Shown here: piece after piece, positions 41,133 through 48,240 of the stretch
How positions within the stretch are numbered: the first letter of the stretch is position 1
Layout of the letters: every line of letters starts with the position of its first letter
Origin: Sulfurimonas crateris
Lineage (GTDB): Bacteria; Campylobacterota; Campylobacteria; Campylobacterales; Sulfurimonadaceae
Assembly: GCA_945870785.1 (NCBI GenBank)
Contig: CAMBTK010000008.1
Location: 1-48,240, forward strand
Direction: 5' to 3'
DNA: 48,240 nucleotides
Made by a program: the position numbers and the translations under genes
Notes under the pieces: model-generated
Told to the model about the DNA's origin: nothing
What the model saw: the letters and a program-made list of their open reading frames with translations, nothing else
Databases searched by the model: none

Positions 41133-41207
41133 GCGGGAATAGCTCAGTGGTAGAGCACAACCTTGCCAAGGTTGGGGTCGCGAGTTCGAACCTCGTTTCC
41201 CGCTCCA
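41133..41207 (+). tRNA. tRNA-Gly (anticodon GCC)
   Basis: GCGGGAA pairs with TTCCCGC to form the acceptor stem, the anticodon loop is TTGCCAA with GCC, the T-loop is TTCGAAC, and CCA is encoded. First of four tRNAs in a row. Confidence 0.97.
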
Positions 41208-41255
41208 TAAATATAAAATATAAATAAAGATATCCGATATCTTGAAAAAACCCAT

Positions 41256-41342
41256 GCCCGGGTGGTGAAATCGGTAGACACAAGGGATTTAAAATCCCTC
41301 GCTCGTAAGGGTGTGCCGGTTCAAGTCCGGCTTCGGGCACCA
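41256..41342 (+). tRNA. tRNA-Leu (anticodon TAA)
   Basis: A class II tRNA with a long variable arm. GCCCGGG pairs with TTCGGGC; the anticodon stem GGGAT/ATCCC holds the TAA anticodon; T-loop TTCAAGT; CCA encoded. Length 87. Confidence 0.96.
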
Positions 41343-41366
41343 TTGTTATAAATTTTTGTTGAAACT

Positions 41367-41440
41367 GGTGCCATCGCCAAGTGGTAAGGCCGCAGCCTGC
41401 AAAGCTGCTATCCCCAGTTCAAATCTGGGTGGCACCTCCA
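41367..41440 (+). tRNA. tRNA-Cys (anticodon GCA)
   Basis: GGTGCCA and TGGCACC close the acceptor stem, GCAGC/GCTGC holds an anticodon loop CTGCAAA with GCA, T-loop TTCAAAT, and CCA is encoded. Length 74. Confidence 0.96.
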
Positions 41441-41471
41441 AAATTTTATGATAACTTCTTTTTACAAACGT

Positions 41472-41560
41472 GGATCTTTGGCTGAGTTGGTCGATAGCAC
41501 CGGTCTTGAAAACCGGCGAGGGTTATACCTCCCAGAGTTCGAATCTCTGAGGGTCCACCA
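41472..41560 (+). tRNA. tRNA-Ser (anticodon TGA), likely integration site
   Basis: A class II tRNA: GGATCTT pairs with AGGGTCC (with wobbles), CCGGT/ACCGG holds the TGA anticodon, the long variable arm is GAGGGTTATACCTCC, T-loop TTCGAAT, CCA encoded. Unlike neighbouring sequence the region after it is AT-rich and carries mobile-like genes, so its 3' end is the probable attachment site. Confidence 0.96.
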
Positions 41561-41777
41561 CTTTTAAACCCCTAAAACAAGCACTTTTAATTTTTAATCT
41601 AAACGATATAATCTTCTTAAGAAAAATATGGTTCCCACCTTGGTTCCCACTTTTTTTGGAATTAATAGGAAATTTCCATAATACTATCTTTTAAATTGTC
41701 CATTCAACGCATGTATGATAATCTGATTTTTACAATCCTAAAGACACTATAAGCTTTGCACTATAAGTCTATAAATT
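41540..41777. other. Probable attachment region with two direct-repeat pairs
   Basis: From the 3' end of tRNA-Ser to the 449-aa gene no tRNA or gene is visible. TGGTTCCCAC occurs at 41629-41638 and 41641-41650, and CACTATAAG at 41745-41753 and 41759-41767. GGAAATTTCC (41668-41677) is a short palindrome. Pairs of short repeats next to an attachment site are common for integrase or excisionase binding. That role is inference, and no second copy of the tRNA end is in the window. Confidence 0.4.
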
Positions 41778-43127
41778 CTATATTTCTTTTACATAGGCAT
41801 CTTTTTTTGCATTCAATTCATCTTCAGTAATGGAAAAAATTGGGATGCTTGGTATTCTGTCCCACATTCCTGTTATCTCTATTGCTTCTGAACCAGCAAT
41901 TAGTTCTTTATATTTTTCATCTTCTATATACTCTCGCATTAGCTTATAGACTTTTTCTATTTTATCACTTTTACTCAATTCCAGATGTTTTTTATTTTTA
42001 CTTTTGGCTACTTTACCACTTCTTAAATACTGATTGTGTACATCAGAGATACCACAGGCAAGTGAAACTTCAATATGAAGAGTTAGCTTAGTATAATCAT
42101 CATCTTTTTTTAGCTTTTTTTCATATATATTTTCAATATATTTATAAAGGTCATAAATATATATTGCATCAGCAAAATCTTTTTTCGAAATATTCTTCTT
42201 TTTTTGACTTTTTGGCTCTTTTGCATCTATAAGAAATTCCCCAAATATTTCTAAAGGACTTTGCACGATGCTTTTATTAGTATCAAAATCATCTTTAATT
42301 TTAGAAATATAAGCTATAAGCTCTTTCTTACTCAAATTAAGATTAACAGGAATATTTACTACTTTTTCATTTTTAAATTTTAATGTGGGTGCAGAATAGC
42401 TGATTTTAGCTTGAGGCAATTTGTATACAGTTCTTATTATGTTCAAATCTTGTAAAAAATCTTTATCCAGTATTTCCAAAGGCATATCTTTAGATAAAGC
42501 GGTTAGTTTTTGCTCCCCAGATTTTTTATCTTTACAATAAGTAGCATACTTCCATGGGGTTTGCATAATATCATCAATTCTCTTTTCGGCTTCATCTGTA
42601 TCAATTGGTTCGAAATATTGAACTTTTAAATCATTTCTTGCATCATAACCTTGCTTGCTACAAATATATAAATTTTGTGTATCGACTAAATATGAAATAA
42701 GCTTCCATAATCCTATATGCTCCACATCAAGATCAAAATCAAATATTTTTATATCATTTAGTGTAACATTAGAATCATCAATTTCAAAAAACGAATCATC
42801 TTCAGATGACTTATTGCTTTCCTCTAAAAAACCACCATATCCTAAATTAATCGAATCTCTATAAAAATCAGTCAAATTTAATGTATCAAAATATTCTTCT
42901 AAATTTTCTTTGTATTGCTTTGCTCTTTCAAAATGTTTTTTAACTTTTTCATTTCTTTGCGATAGCTCATAAGCCAATACATATGTATACTCATAATCTA
43001 AAACATTCTCCATATTAATATAAAAAATATCATACCTCTTAGGTCTTTTTTTATATACTTCATCACCAATACATTCGTCAAATAATGCCGATAACTCTTC
43101 TAATACTTTTCTTTCTTGCTCAGTCAT
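41778..43127 (-). CDS. Unknown 449-aa protein at the island edge
   Basis: I do not recognise this protein. It is acidic, soluble and probably mostly helical. Noticeable parts are an N-terminal helical section (EQERKVLEELSALFDECIG), an acidic middle (about 100-125, SSEDDSFFEIDDS), and a charged Lys/Glu C-terminal half. No signal peptide or membrane helix, and no recombinase Tyr or Ser motif that I can see, so it is not an obvious integrase. It reads towards the tRNA and is divergent from the HTH gene with 214 bases between. The start lacks a clear Shine-Dalgarno (GATAAACTTTATAT before ATG). Confidence 0.78.
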   Translation of the reverse strand: MTEQERKVLEELSALFDECIGDEVYKKRPKRYDIFYINMENVLDYEYTYVLAYELSQRNEKVKKHFERAKQYKENLEEYFDTLNLTDFYRDSINLGYGGFLEESNKSSEDDSFFEIDDSNVTLNDIKIFDFDLDVEHIGLWKLISYLVDTQNLYICSKQGYDARNDLKVQYFEPIDTDEAEKRIDDIMQTPWKYATYCKDKKSGEQKLTALSKDMPLEILDKDFLQDLNIIRTVYKLPQAKISYSAPTLKFKNEKVVNIPVNLNLSKKELIAYISKIKDDFDTNKSIVQSPLEIFGEFLIDAKEPKSQKKKNISKKDFADAIYIYDLYKYIENIYEKKLKKDDDYTKLTLHIEVSLACGISDVHNQYLRSGKVAKSKNKKHLELSKSDKIEKVYKLMREYIEDEKYKELIAGSEAIEITGMWDRIPSIPIFSITEDELNAKKDAYVKEI

Positions 43128-43341
43128 ATATAAAGTTTATCACAATAATAGTAAAAATCTAAAATCCACATTATCAAAATAACCAAATTATATGGCTTCG
43201 GAAAATTTTAAATGTTTTTTTTACGAAAAAAAAAGAAGACATGTTTCATATTATTCTATGGTGCAGAAGTAAAAAGAGCTCATTAACTTGCTCCTGCATT
43301 AAAAAGAAATCGATTTCTAAATTTAAAACAAGGACAAAAAA
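43128..43341. promoter_or_regulatory. Divergent control region with a 14-bp palindrome
   Basis: AT-rich region between the 449-aa gene and the HTH gene. AGAAATCGATTTCT (43305-43318) is a perfect palindrome 24 bases before the HTH ATG, a candidate operator. TGCAG...CTGCA and GAGC...GCTC repeats lie at about 43262-43298. No strong sigma-70 promoter can be fixed. Operator use is inference. Confidence 0.5.
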
Positions 43342-43578
43342 ATGTCAGAAAATTTGGAAAAAGTAAATTTTGTAGAAACTTATGCAAAATTAACAAAAAG
43401 ATGGTTGTCACCTGATGATTTAGAAAAAGAATATGGCTTTAGCAAAAGCACTCAAAGTAAAATGCGCATGCAAAGCTCAAATTCAACAATACCTTTTTCA
43501 AAGGTTGGCGGTAAATATATTAGATATGACAGAGTTGCTATAGATAAATGGCTCGAAGAACACCAAATGCGAGGTTAA
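43342..43578 (+). CDS. AlpA/excisionase-like helix-turn-helix protein
   Basis: A 78-aa protein of the MerR/AlpA-like helix-turn-helix group: LSPDDLEKEYGFSKSTQSKM is the likely HTH, followed by the wing-like IPFSKVGGKYIRYDRVAIDK and WLEEH. Such proteins act as excisionase or activator in phages and islands, for example P4-like AlpA. AAGGA lies 8 bases before the ATG. It leads the plus-strand set: the 48-aa gene begins 2 bases after its stop. Confidence 0.82.
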   Translation: MSENLEKVNFVETYAKLTKRWLSPDDLEKEYGFSKSTQSKMRMQSSNSTIPFSKVGGKYIRYDRVAIDKWLEEHQMRG

Positions 43579-43580
43579 AG

Positions 43581-43727
43581 ATGAATGATAATAATGGTTA
43601 TCGTCCTGCTCTGGCAGTAAATAACAAGCAGCAGCGTTACAGTAACCTATCGAAAAAAGTTGGCGATGGAATTTTCTTCACTATTGATGAAATTAATAAA
43701 AAAGAAATCAAAAGAGGTAAATTATGA
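43581..43727 (+). CDS. 48-aa unknown protein between HTH and helicase
   Basis: A short frame starting MNDNNGYRPALAVNNKQQRY, with GDGIFFTIDEINKKE in the second half. Start follows GAGGTTAAAG, and the stop overlaps the helicase ATG (ATGA), so translation is coupled. No match known to me. The length, start site and overlap make it a likely gene. Too short for domain assignment. Confidence 0.65.
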   Translation: MNDNNGYRPALAVNNKQQRYSNLSKKVGDGIFFTIDEINKKEIKRGKL

Positions 43728-45301
43728 GTAACTATACAAATATTTCATATGAATATGAAGATGATATCTTCGCAGATGAAATTAAAGACTCTACTAAAAA
43801 TTCAAATGACAATATGGTTCAAAGGGAAATGGAAGATTTAGAGAATCTTGATGAAAATCTTAATGTAAATATAGAAAAACAAAAGATGGAAGTTTTGTCA
43901 ACGGATATTATTTGTGATGGCAGTGGTTTTCAAAATCTTATAGAAAAAGATGATACATTAGAACCACCACCTGATTTTTCAAAATATAAATTCAACAACT
44001 TCAGAGTTTCTGATAATGAGTACCTTATTAAATTAGAAAAAGCTGGTGGTGCATTGATTATGTTTGATGATGGAGAGTTGATGTTGAGATCATCACCAGA
44101 TGCAGATTTTAAAAAAGTCACTGAAGAAAAAGCTAGCAGAGTTATAAGCAAACTAATAGGAGAATTTATTACAGTAGGGAGAGGGACAAAGGATAGACCA
44201 CCTGAGATTAAGTATGAAGATTTAATGTTGGTTTCCACTGATGATATTGATACTGGTATTATGGAAGAGTTTTATAAAAAGGGTAACACATATGTGATGA
44301 ACAAGTTTAAACCCACTGAAGCTTTGTTGCTAGATAAAGATACGCCTTATAAAAAGCCAACATACTCCTTGAAGCTAATAGCACACTTAGTGAATTACAA
44401 TGAAGAGCGCTTTCATTATATTATGAATTGGTTAGCTTACATGTTTGTGTTTTTGAGCAAATCACAGGTTGCCGTTGTCCTTAGAGGGGTACAAGGTAGT
44501 GGTAAAGGGGTGTTTTTTAACCTTGTCTCATTGTTATTTGGTAAAGAATATTGTTTTACAGTGGGGAACAAAACTATTAAATCGCAGTTTCTTGGTAGTG
44601 TATTTGAGTTTAAACTTTTTATCAATATCAACGAGATGTCTCATGATATAAAATCTAATAAAGAGAATAAGAACTCTTTAAAAGAACTTGTGACAGATTC
44701 AGAATTTGCAGGTGAAAAAAAGTATGAGAACATCTCTAAACCAATTAAACTAACTGCGCAAATATTGATAACTTCAAACGAGGCATATATTCTTGAAATA
44801 GAACCAGAGGATAGAAGATACACTGTATTTTCTACAGCTGGAAATATATCAAACGAAGAGTGTAACTTTTTTGGATTTGGAGATTTTAAAGTTCTAAAGA
44901 AACAACTAGAATTTGAGCTGCCAAATTTAGCATTATACCTGAAAAACTATCCTATAGATACGAACCTTGCGAACAAAGCACTCAATACATATGAAAAAAA
45001 AGCTTTAGTCAAAGGAACAAATGATAGATTTAAATTGTTTATCAATGCTCTTTTGACTCAAGATATAGAGTATTTAGAGCCGCTAAAAGCAAAGAATCCT
45101 ATTGTATATGCAAATATGATTTCAGGATTTAAAAAAGGAAGAATCTATCAAAGAGATATGTTGCCTGCTTTTATTGCAATGAATCCTAGTGATTTTGCTA
45201 TGTCTACACAAGCATTGCTTGACAAGCTTGAGATATATGAACCAACAAAATTTTCAAGAGACCTAAGAAAAAAATCTAGCGAATACTACTTTAACCTATA
45301 G
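43724..45301 (+). CDS. SF3/D5-type replicative helicase (DUF5906-like)
   Basis: A 525-aa protein whose middle is a superfamily 3 helicase of the phage D5/P4 kind. Walker A is GVQGSGKG at 255-262 with Lys261, Walker B-like LFININEM with Glu304, and motif C ILITSNE with Asn352. A proceeding N-terminal region of 150 residues (about 95-170 with LIKLEKAGGALIMFDDGELM) is not a recognisable primase: no clear primase catalytic motif is visible. The C-terminal 150 residues are helical and basic. In this family the helicase is joined to a primase or polymerase, as in the NrS-1 phage of a related deep-sea genus. The 4-base overlap with the 48-aa gene suggests coupling. Ends in a terminator-like hairpin. 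Confidence 0.87.
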   Translation: MSNYTNISYEYEDDIFADEIKDSTKNSNDNMVQREMEDLENLDENLNVNIEKQKMEVLSTDIICDGSGFQNLIEKDDTLEPPPDFSKYKFNNFRVSDNEYLIKLEKAGGALIMFDDGELMLRSSPDADFKKVTEEKASRVISKLIGEFITVGRGTKDRPPEIKYEDLMLVSTDDIDTGIMEEFYKKGNTYVMNKFKPTEALLLDKDTPYKKPTYSLKLIAHLVNYNEERFHYIMNWLAYMFVFLSKSQVAVVLRGVQGSGKGVFFNLVSLLFGKEYCFTVGNKTIKSQFLGSVFEFKLFININEMSHDIKSNKENKNSLKELVTDSEFAGEKKYENISKPIKLTAQILITSNEAYILEIEPEDRRYTVFSTAGNISNEECNFFGFGDFKVLKKQLEFELPNLALYLKNYPIDTNLANKALNTYEKKALVKGTNDRFKLFINALLTQDIEYLEPLKAKNPIVYANMISGFKKGRIYQRDMLPAFIAMNPSDFAMSTQALLDKLEIYEPTKFSRDLRKKSSEYYFNL

Positions 45302-45305
45302 AATG

Positions 45306-45329
45306 GCTTTAGACTTAATTGTCTAAAGC
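45306..45329 (+). terminator. Hairpin between helicase and the 350-aa gene
   Basis: GCTTTAGAC and GTCTAAAGC make a perfect 9-bp stem around TTAATT, 5 bases after the helicase stop. The tail TATTTTAATT is T-rich but interrupted, so it may terminate part of the transcripts and lower expression of the genes that follow. Confidence 0.6.
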
Positions 45330-45369
45330 TATTTTAATTACAAAAAATAAACACATAAGGAGTAACAAA

Positions 45370-46422
45370 ATGGTTATAACGCCATATGATAATAGCTTTA
45401 AGCTATGTGAGCATTGGTTCGTCAATGCAAAAAACAATCTTCTTAATGAAGAAATATTAAATTTACAAGTCTTCAGTCATGGGGGATTTCCTAGAACTTT
45501 TCAAATAGTTAAAACGCTTATTAAAACTATTATGAAAGAACAGCAAGAGGAAATTCTTGAAGATAGCAACGACTGTTTTGCAACGAGATTATATTCAGTA
45601 TATTTTACATGGACAACAAACATATCAGATATTAGCTATGAACAAAACAGGAATATAATTTTAGTAACACTACATACACCTGATTTTCTTGAAATTCATA
45701 GACCTATTTTATGTGTTTCACTCAAGGATTATTCTCTTGATCTAAACAGTAGATTTAGAAAAACCCCTCTAAATGAGGAATTTTTAAATAAGCTCGTAAA
45801 TGGCTTAGCACATGATTTAGCAAAACCTGAACTAAGTGAAGTTGAACAATATACGATTTATATCAAGCAACTACCATTAATGGAGCTAATGAAAAATAAA
45901 GAGTATCAAAAAATTGGACACTACATTTATAAAACTATCATTAGAGAACCCTACCATCAAATACTTATAGACACTGAATATAGCTCAAAAAAGTATTGTT
46001 TTCAAAATTTAATTCTTGATGATATTAAAATGTTTGTAAATGAAAAAGTTTTGTTAGCTAGATTGTCTATTATTATATACAGACTATCTTTTTTAGAGTT
46101 TGACAAAGATATATCTGCTATCACTAAATTTTTTAGTCAAAAACTTGCATTAGGAGATAGTGAAAATCTATATTTGGATCATTTAAACTTCATAAGTAGA
46201 GATTTAAACAGTACTTCAAGTTGCAGCGCTTATGATTTGAGATACTTAGAGTCAAAACAAATAGCAAAGGCAAAAGAGATTATCAAAAACCAAAAAAACA
46301 GATATGGAGATGAACCTGAATTTGAATTTGATAGAGAAGCGATATATGAAGCAACATACCTTTCTCATGGAAACATCGAGCAACTAATTCAAATGGAGGT
46401 ACTTAACCATGGCACAAACTGA
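45370..46422 (+). CDS. Unknown 350-aa island protein
   Basis: I do not recognise this protein. Start chosen at the ATG 45370-45372 (MVITPYDNSFKL) because AAGGAG is 7 bases upstream; the frame could extend to 45319. It is soluble and alpha/beta, with SHGGFPRTFQIVKTLI near the N-terminus, LHTPDFLEIHRPILCVSLKD (residues about 105-125) and an acidic helical C-terminus. No signal, membrane helix or known catalytic motif. It lies between the helicase and the pseudo-helicase and overlaps the latter by 14 bases, so these two are made together. A replication accessory role is inference. Confidence 0.75.
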   Translation: MVITPYDNSFKLCEHWFVNAKNNLLNEEILNLQVFSHGGFPRTFQIVKTLIKTIMKEQQEEILEDSNDCFATRLYSVYFTWTTNISDISYEQNRNIILVTLHTPDFLEIHRPILCVSLKDYSLDLNSRFRKTPLNEEFLNKLVNGLAHDLAKPELSEVEQYTIYIKQLPLMELMKNKEYQKIGHYIYKTIIREPYHQILIDTEYSSKKYCFQNLILDDIKMFVNEKVLLARLSIIIYRLSFLEFDKDISAITKFFSQKLALGDSENLYLDHLNFISRDLNSTSSCSAYDLRYLESKQIAKAKEIIKNQKNRYGDEPEFEFDREAIYEATYLSHGNIEQLIQMEVLNHGTN

Positions 46423-48106
46423 ATCAAACTGGTTTATCGATATTTGTGATGACATCATATTCATGCTAGATAACAATGAGTTTAACTACACAAATAGTAC
46501 CATTTATAATAGTTTAATAGTAGAGCTTTTCAAAGATTGTGTAAACTTTACTATTTCTTACAATAATCAAGAATACAATCCTGAGAAATTTTTTGATAGT
46601 TACACACAAGAAGAATTATTAGCTCTTGATATTTTCAAAGCTTTGCTTCGAGAAAGTCGTGAACTTATGGATATAGATATAAATAATTCAGATGATATAG
46701 CTCTTCTGGAATCTTATTTCAATAAAATCGCTTTAACTCTTGATAATGCTACATCTGCTCAAGCGGTTCAAGCTTATAACTCAACACATTTTCCCATGGC
46801 ATCAATTTCAACTGATGCAAATAGCAATTACAAAAAAATCATCAAAGCCCATGAAAAATGGCTTGGTGATTTGGCTCTTATAACGCAACAGCAAAAAAAA
46901 ATAGAACTGGAGCAAAACTTTCTTTATCAAAAAGATATTGACATAAAAAATAGAATTGCTGACAATCACCATAGAACAGTTAATTTACTATGTAATCAAG
47001 ACTTAAAAATATGGAAAGATCAAAATAACAAACTTTACTATAGGCAAAAAGCATTTGAAAAAGAGCAAAAAGTCAGTAAAAATGAGATGGGTGATATTAT
47101 AAATTTTCATCCCAATATATATGACTCTACAAATGATGTTCAAGTCATAGAAGCAGATTATATAATAGTTTCATTATTGCCTACAGTGCGAAAAAATATC
47201 TTCAACCCATTTTCTAATAATGAGTTTATATTTATTTCCAATAACCTATATGATAGAAATACTTTTGAATATACGGAATTATTAAAAAAGAGATTAGTTC
47301 ATGTACGCATTAATCAACTACAACTAGAGATTATGAATCTTAAATCACAACTACACTATTCACAAGCATATTATCAACAGACATCAAACCAGATTATTCA
47401 TAAAGAGCATGAGTTACAATGGCTAAGAGGCTCATTAATTGTCAAAGAGAAAAGCTTTATAGAAGAGTATTTGAGATTAGTTTTTCAAAATGAAAAAGAG
47501 TTTTATTTTTTTATATTTTGGTTAAGTAATTTCTTTTGGACTTTAAGTAAGTCCAATATAGCAGTTATTTTAATAGGAGATAGTGAAACAACAGATATTT
47601 TGGTTGAGTACATTATCAAACCAATCTTCATAAATAACAAAAAATATATGGGTACTATTACAAATGATTCCCTATTAAAAGAAAGTAACGATAATAAGCT
47701 ACTTGAAGATAAAATCTTTTTTCATATCAATAATCTTGGTGCTAAAACAGATTTAAGAAGAGTAAGTAAACTGTTAAGAAATATTGTGAAACCAAACCAT
47801 ATAACTCCTTTTCAAGCATGGGATAATGATGAACCATATATTTACGGCGAATTACTTGTAACATCTGAAAAAGAAAATCCGTACAGCTATTTAAAGAGTA
47901 TTTTTAGTAGTTGTTCTGTACTTAGAGTAAAAAGCATGGATACAATTTTAGATAAACTTAATATGGAATATTCTCAATTTGATAAGAGTATAGCTGATGA
48001 TCTAAATAACTTCGTTAATAAATTAGTAGATTACAGCCAATGCAATAAACTACCCGTTGTGATTAATACTGATGAAAAGTCTTATTTGCACACTATAATG
48101 GCCTGA
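46409..48106 (+). CDS. Degenerate SF3-helicase-like protein (catalytic residues lost), possibly truncated
   Basis: A 565-aa protein; the first 340 residues are unrecognised, with coiled-coil sections (about 150-185 and 305-350). Residues about 368-520 resemble the helicase encoded two genes upstream. FWLSNFFWTLSKSNIAVILIG matches NWLAYMFVFLSKSQVAVVLRG in about half the positions. The ATPase residues are gone: Lys261 of the helicase corresponds to Asp396, Glu304 to Asn442 and Asn352 to Glu487. The chain ends about 90 residues before the matching end of the helicase, at a TGA where an IS3-type element may begin. GGAGG is 9 bases before the ATG, and the frame is fully open, so it is probably expressed. 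Likely a non-catalytic partner of the helicase. Confidence 0.8.
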   Translation: MAQTESNWFIDICDDIIFMLDNNEFNYTNSTIYNSLIVELFKDCVNFTISYNNQEYNPEKFFDSYTQEELLALDIFKALLRESRELMDIDINNSDDIALLESYFNKIALTLDNATSAQAVQAYNSTHFPMASISTDANSNYKKIIKAHEKWLGDLALITQQQKKIELEQNFLYQKDIDIKNRIADNHHRTVNLLCNQDLKIWKDQNNKLYYRQKAFEKEQKVSKNEMGDIINFHPNIYDSTNDVQVIEADYIIVSLLPTVRKNIFNPFSNNEFIFISNNLYDRNTFEYTELLKKRLVHVRINQLQLEIMNLKSQLHYSQAYYQQTSNQIIHKEHELQWLRGSLIVKEKSFIEEYLRLVFQNEKEFYFFIFWLSNFFWTLSKSNIAVILIGDSETTDILVEYIIKPIFINNKKYMGTITNDSLLKESNDNKLLEDKIFFHINNLGAKTDLRRVSKLLRNIVKPNHITPFQAWDNDEPYIYGELLVTSEKENPYSYLKSIFSSCSVLRVKSMDTILDKLNMEYSQFDKSIADDLNNFVNKLVDYSQCNKLPVVINTDEKSYLHTIMA

Positions 48107-48240
48107 AAAATCAAGACAACTTTTCAGCTTAATTAATTTCCACCTCTAGTTGCTACTTTATACTACACTTTTTAAATATTCAAGATAGAGATTCATTGGT
48201 TTTTGATAACCTATGCTTGAATGAAATCTCTTAAAATTAT
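48104..48240 (-). mobile_element. IS3-family insertion sequence, one end only
   Basis: The right edge of the window holds the 3' end of an IS3-type transposase gene and its flank. The other end is outside, so the inverted repeat cannot be compared. I place the boundary tentatively at 48104, where TGAAAAATC begins, because IS3-family ends start with TG and lie some 50 bases from the transposase stop. The stop codon of the 565-aa gene would then be the first bases of the element. TGAAAA...TTTTCA (48104-48127) can also form a small hairpin. Confidence 0.5.
48158..48240 (-). CDS. IS3-family transposase (OrfB), C-terminal fragment
   Basis: The minus strand of the last 83 bases encodes FKRFHSSIGYQKPMNLYLEY then LKSVV and a TAA. 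RxHSSxGYxxPxxxY is the conserved C-terminal end of IS3-family integrase-type transposases. The rest lies beyond the window. It is read towards the 565-aa gene. Confidence 0.82.
   Translation of the reverse strand, partial: NFKRFHSSIGYQKPMNLYLEYLKSVV

Follow-up and report, generated by a model that had tools for sequence, protein, structure and literature searches.

The right end of a contig from Sulfurimonas crateris (GenBank assembly GCA_945870785.1, contig CAMBTK010000008.1) very probably represents the attL-side part of an integrative element, which a tyrosine integrase inserted into the 3' end of the tRNA-Ser(TGA) gene while leaving that gene whole. The window, that is the complete stretch of 48,240 nucleotides analysed here, is an entire contig (C8) of a metagenome-assembled genome (MAG) with 82 contigs and 88.6% completeness, so sequence to its right is unreadable. 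In the following, genomes, contigs and loci carry G, C and L numbers, and G000 is the genome of the window. An island at tRNA-Ser is in itself a familiar kind of insertion. What sets this one apart is that a normal superfamily 3 (SF3) helicase is accompanied by a conserved paralogue that appears to be inactive.

An element at the 3' end of tRNA-Ser(TGA)

ARAGORN placed tRNA-Gly, tRNA-Leu(TAA), tRNA-Cys and tRNA-Ser(TGA) at 41133-41560. The cluster is conserved in relatives, and its last member (41472-41560, forward strand) is the target gene, intact on the attL side. Beyond position 41560 the G+C content is 0.28-0.31 (2-kb windows inside the island) versus 0.32-0.39 upstream, and five main open reading frames (ORFs) follow: P0001, P0002, P0003, P0005 and P0004. 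A first-pass annotation of the sequence had described a switch to AT-rich, unfamiliar genes after the tRNA cluster. Base composition and gene content both agree with this description, and the 449-aa orphan, the AlpA-like regulator, the SF3 helicase and the insertion sequence (IS) listed there are all present. An intact tRNA at one end also belongs to the Islander definition of tRNA-integrated islands (PMC4383910), and in relatives of our element a displaced tRNA 3' fragment and a tyrosine integrase stand at the opposite end.

The last 22 bp of tRNA-Ser (41539-41560, forward strand) form the identity block of the attachment site, which is repeated at attR in relatives. This 22-mer was matched in 107 of the 135 genomes of the genus, and in at least 17 of those it occurs two to three times in the same orientation on a single contig, less than 40 kb apart (at most one mismatch). 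In the complete genome G140 the same 22 bp appear again 20.46 kb downstream, and a PF00589 tyrosine integrase is located just inside attR. Relatives thus bear out the expected direct repeat of the tRNA-Ser 3' end and the expected tyrosine recombinase, in G140 as well as in G111, G189 and G150, where the integrase lies near attR.

Starting 69 bp past tRNA-Ser, we found a direct repeat with a period of 12, whose length was reached by 16 of 5,000 dinucleotide shuffles. Its doubled motif, TGGTTCCCACCTTGGTTCCCAC (41629-41650, forward strand), is a candidate integrase arm-type site of attL. Searched as a composite pattern with at most one mismatch, it matched nine places in five of the 135 genus genomes (reversed control: 0). 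All nine are less than 200 bp away from a tRNA-Ser 3' end, and none was found elsewhere in these genomes: one in the window, one at attL and two overlapping ones at attR of G189, one each at attL and attR of G111, one at attL of G031 and two at attR of G150. With the doubled GGTTCCC motif in common, G111, G189 and G150 are the closest relatives of the window at the attachment site. We also considered the GGTTCCC stretch as a remnant of an integrase C-terminus (VGTKVGT, minus strand). This reading was rejected because the spacing between the repeat and the tRNA-Ser 3' ends is constant on both element sides, while other elements have other motifs.

Element-specific motifs are carried by attL and attR across the elements at tRNA-Ser. 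For 18 such elements, the longest strings shared between attL and attR sum to 278 compared to a permutation mean of 166, and 0 of 20,000 permutations scored as high; the shared string measures at least 12 nt in 11 of the 18 elements and 11 nt in one. For G189, whose motif had already been seen beforehand, only C143 was paired among three further tRNA 3'-end copies, and for G111 the second copy is situated on a different contig. A TTGCTACCC-type motif is common to four tRNA-Ser elements, those of G133, G141, G172 and G161 (loci L149, L152-L153, L146 and L155). The integrases of these four are 67-89% identical, and their motif type follows the integrase clade.

A comparable arrangement is described for HE-PICIs, in whose attP a doubled co-oriented motif flanks the crossover and was proposed as possible integrase arm sites (PMC10111431, available part). 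The doubling is alike, whereas the motif sequences differ, each element type at one tRNA having its own motif. The integration sites differ as well: HE-PICIs use prophage late genes, our element tRNA-Ser.

Mobility of the island and its missing right part

Thirty-seven genomes with a tRNA-Ser locus, together with their repeats, were re-read for integrases. P0001 follows tRNA-Ser at 5 of the 37 loci (window, G140, G111, G189 and G105), a sporadic presence as expected for a tRNA-integrated island. In G095, G064 and G101 the tRNA cluster matches that of the window at 412-415 identities over 432-435 bases, as close as that of G111, and the genes behind it differ from those of the window. The earlier annotation had asked for related genomes without the insert and had named the same genes beside tRNA-Ser in all relatives as the observation that would speak against an island. 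The comparison revealed the reverse, since P0001 occupies only these five loci and close relatives carry other genes.

The block P0003-P0005-P0004 recurs with 87.5% identity over 4.4 kb in G164, elsewhere in the genome and with other integrases. There it lies between repeats resembling miniature inverted-repeat transposable elements (MITEs), downstream of two integrase genes, and no tRNA was detected in that 20-kb stretch. The MITE-like repeats (L033 10366-10554 and 15655-15845) are about 190 bp long, near-identical and have 24-bp inverted ends; the pair brackets the block in inverted orientation, and further end copies occur on that contig. Elements of relatives combine an integrase, P0001, AlpA, a 125-170-aa protein and an SF3-like protein in varying sets, and they also vary in YagK/G2P-like Rep, DUF932, Gp157 and Rad52. 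Among viral contigs and plasmids no relative was found.

If the block were ordinary AT-rich chromosomal DNA that follows a tRNA cluster, the failure to find attR and an integrase in this genome would need no explanation. This reading is already contradicted and can be considered extremely improbable: the att motif is confined to tRNA-Ser attachment sites, the G164 block sits at another location, and close relatives have other genes at the same place.

The first-pass annotation had placed the integrase and the second attachment site to the right. This was confirmed in relatives, while the contig of the window itself ends in an IS and its own remainder is unreadable. At all three attR sites (G189, G111 and G150) an integrase is neighbouring or located within about 1.6 kb; in G189, a 413-aa ORF lies between the two. 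These three integrases (376-378 aa, 78-84% identical) form one clade. Among 25 repeat copies, 8 had an integrase match at most 300 bp inside the repeat, a count that likely misses integrases because the hidden Markov model (HMM) had just one G164 integrase as its starting point. Islander islands differ from the window in this respect (PMC4383910, available part): here attR and integrase are absent from the assembly, and in relatives the integrase stands at the end away from the tRNA.

Several observations weigh against an integrative element at this site. No attR was found in the own genome, where the tRNA-Ser 20-mer occurs once (at most three mismatches). None of its six PF00589 proteins is close to the integrase clade of G111, G189 and G150, with full-length identities not exceeding 28% for the integrase of G189 and 29% for that of G111, and the 6.5 kb of the island that could be read contain no integrase. 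The missing right part was sought in the own genome via the tRNA-Ser 3' end, PF00589, Rad52 and the arm motif and was not found; Rad52, which is near the module in G164, was likewise not found. Because the assembly is incomplete, the missing attR and integrase are indecisive. Furthermore, 6 of the 18 elements at the site share 10 nt or fewer between attL and attR, and therefore a shared motif is not universal. P0004 is cut by an IS in this genome, and the element may therefore be defunct here. Finally, structure predictions for P0001 (four sequences) and P0005 (one sequence) were poor (pLDDT 33 and 34) and were not used.

A second integrase of this genome (359 aa, L008 967-2046) was observed at the end of contig G000:C48. 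The last bases of this contig correspond, in reverse complement, to the tRNA-Asn 3' end plus flank that ends G000:C53 (L079), and the C48 end has its own doubled motif, AGCTACCATA, twice. This is probably a second island of the genome, at tRNA-Asn.

An SF3 helicase and its motor-less paralogue

P0003 (43724-45301, forward strand, 525 aa) is an SF3 helicase of the DUF5906 type (54.1 bits, cut-off 27.6) with additional VapE-like matches. Its Walker A, Walker B and sensor 1 motifs are intact (GVQGSGKG, ININE and SNE). The nearest match of P0003 is the helicase portion of the phage NrS-1 primase (30% identity), and its family matched the helicase domain of this primase-polymerase by profile (E 2.6e-48; PDB 6K9C/6K9E; PMC7102993, available part). 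Compared to NrS-1, P0003 comes without the Prim/Pol part and P0004 without the ATPase motifs.

P0004 (46409-48093, forward strand) reads as a 565-aa ORF at 46409-48106 that ends in IS sequence; its G164 counterpart comprises 670 aa. Pfam, PHROG (above noise), NCBIfam and PADLOC gave no match, and iterated HMMs connected it with P0003 across the whole SF3 region. All three motifs are lost, with GDSETTDI, HINNL and SEK in the places of Walker A, Walker B and sensor 1. As judged from these motifs, P0004 is related to SF3 helicases by descent only and is apparently inactive. The 350-aa and 565-aa ORFs had been taken as further unknowns; neither has a Pfam match, as stated, and the 565-aa one is in fact an SF3 paralogue cut by an IS.

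The loss of three ATPase motifs and the IS-cut copy of the window would suit a helicase duplicate that is simply decaying. Between the window and G164, dN/dS values (NG86) were 0.13 for P0003 and 0.20 for P0004, with 0.11 in the ATPase-like part of the latter. P0004 is thus under purifying selection between species, and loss of the motor therefore did not mean loss of function. In addition, 14 such proteins belong to one clade, as a rule with intact frames, and more exist in other families. Decay is largely contradicted by these findings and seems quite improbable.

These counts stem from 228 genomes of the family, of which 21 gave matches, plus one protein (L068) added by hand. Motifs could be read in 29 SF3-like proteins, of which 15 retain those of the ATPase and 14 are without them. 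The latter constitute one side of one branch (100/99; 100% of 200 bootstrap trees) in a tree calculated with the motif columns removed and with three phage outgroups; G176 was dropped as too short, and the unity was also obtained at 98% without outgroups. Three of the 14 motif-less rows have long branches. At class level, 18 of 397 genomes gave SF3 matches: the protein is degenerate in G472, G417, G555, G468 and G538, retains the GK of Walker A with the other motifs lost in G475, G426 and G513, and appears active by its motifs in G465, G275, G533, G231 and G259. Early-branching degenerate SF3s that retain parts of the motifs were seen in L193 (8501-10042, G087) and L040 (9072-10514, G063) and are possible intermediates of motif loss.

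In G111 and G149 the degenerate SF3 contains a TrwB/TraG-type ATPase within the same chain, and TraG HMM matches point to the same fusion in G140 and G538. We observed such fusions to the coupling-protein (TrwB/TraG) ATPase of type IV secretion systems (T4SS) in L065 (4849-7677), L068 (12075-14918) and L247. Literature searches, covering titles and the beginnings of abstracts, turned up no published description of a degenerate SF3. The CCPol-MP-Cch2 set of SCCmec (PMC7581432), by its description, is likewise a three-gene replication operon of an element, with a helicase that binds its origin; it differs in that the abstract mentions no degenerate helicase paralogue.

Candidate accessory genes and possible routes of spread

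P0001 (41778-43127, minus strand, 449 aa) matched no known protein family; together with its homologues it forms a group located at att edges or next to integrases. Searches detected homologues in 13 of the 228 genomes of the family and in 9 of the 397 of the class, two sets that overlap. The distance to a tRNA 3' end is at most 500 bp in G000, G140, G111, G189, G105, G049, G084, G110 and G538. In G132, G021, G164, G327 and G519 the homologue stands immediately beside the integrase gene (int), and in G132 and G021 the two genes overlap by 4 nt. Other homologues are farther from int (G136, G149, the second G164 copy and G142) or have neither int nor tRNA in short flanks (G551, G493, G533 and two Aliarcobacter MAG contigs); this survey covered the matches apart from some, such as G189:C145 and G164:C4. 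Profile comparison of P0001 with the PDB gave nothing meaningful, and comparison with a profile of the longer degenerate SF3s gave no match. In PICMI satellites the gene iolg overlaps int by ATGA and is needed for excision (PMC10803314, available part), and P0001 homologues in L069 and L077 likewise share 4 nt with int. By this analogy of position and by its location, P0001 is a candidate accessory for integrase or excision.

P0002 (43342-43578, forward strand, 78 aa) resembles HTH_17/AlpA-like regulators or excisionases (E 2.4e-5, 24.9 bits, below the cut-off of 27). It is followed by a 48-aa ORF (43581-43727, forward strand) with no known relative. Flanked by alpA and the SF3 gene, this ORF begins with NDNNGYRPALAV, which resembles the transfer-messenger RNA (tmRNA) tag of some relatives (ANNTNYRPALAVA). 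It contains YRPALAV, and the tag of the own tmRNA, read in L078, is ANNTNYRPAYAVA; the likeness to relatives' tags is probably a coincidence. P0005 (45370-46422, forward strand, 350 aa) has no Pfam match, and its sole relative found is in G164 (79% identity, dN/dS 0.27, NG86). That P0005 is the split-off N-terminus of longer degenerate SF3s was rejected, as no profile match was obtained (E 0.36). The contig ends in the left end of the IS (48094-48240). Contig C61 terminates in the same first 147 bp of the IS, whose other end opens contig C21. The IS, with the sequence TATAATGGCC..., interrupts a PAS-domain gene at the C61 end (L010 10500-10664; L011 1-150). This gene, named from reading its ORF alone, is split between C61 and C21. 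By features of its transposase reading, the IS is probably IS3-like.

The architecture of the attachment site and its match to the elements of relatives were observed directly, and from there we infer how the element may work. The missing right part would carry attR together with an integrase from the clade of G111, G189 and G150, and the arm domain of this integrase would bind the doubled GGTTCCC motif. AlpA (P0002) may act as excision factor or switch, and P0001 may help integration or excision. The excised circle would be replicated by the helicase P0003 with P0005 and P0004, the latter as a putative non-motor subunit, e.g. an origin-binding or adaptor protein joined to a motor. In the present element this motor would be the active SF3, in others the TraG/TrwB-type coupling ATPase of the fusion proteins. 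Because structure predictions failed, the roles of P0001, of the replication genes and of the adaptor are proposed from location and sequence only. Spread would need a helper phage or a conjugative element.

Two routes can be envisaged. Transfer as an integrative mobilizable element, with the aid of a conjugative helper, is a real possibility, albeit short of probable. It is consistent with the TraG/TrwB-like domain fused to the degenerate SF3 in G111, G149 and G538 and with the presence of both TraG and Replic_Relax in the complete element of G140. Against it, neither relaxase nor coupling protein was seen in the 6.5 kb read, and in G189, which shares the att type, the part seen contains a (split) SF3 but gave no TraG match. 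We regard a PICI/PICMI-like phage satellite, with int, AlpA and a DUF5906 primase/helicase and packaged by a helper phage, as rather unlikely. AlpA and DUF5906 are marker families of PICIs and PICMIs (PMC10803314 and PMC10111431, available parts), and both are present, with int not in the part seen. A capsid gene is absent from this part, and the doubled att motif resembles that of HE-PICIs. However, no packaging or capsid-remodelling gene was seen, and relatives' elements contain T4SS-coupling-type ATPases, Replic_Relax and AbiE-type genes instead of phage genes. Integration is at tRNA-Ser and not at fis, where PICMIs reside in Vibrionaceae (PICMI115 measures about 6 kb; PMC10803314, available part).

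For the genus, our results identify tRNA-Ser(TGA) as a repeatedly used integration site, at which element-specific arm motifs predict the integrase that an incomplete element should carry. P0001 may be a new type of accessory protein for tyrosine integrases. The motor-less SF3 clade, with members fused to a transfer ATPase, prompts the question of how an inactive helicase can serve small integrative elements in initiating their replication or transfer. Speculatively, and on balance we doubt it, Campylobacterota-type integrative elements may carry an old motor-less SF3 family of single origin. Its members would use the retained SF3 fold as a platform for origin binding or as an adaptor to which interchangeable motors are coupled: in trans, an active SF3 (window, G164), or in cis, a conjugative coupling ATPase (G111, G149, G140, G538). 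If this were true, the same targeting protein could direct replication or DNA transfer.

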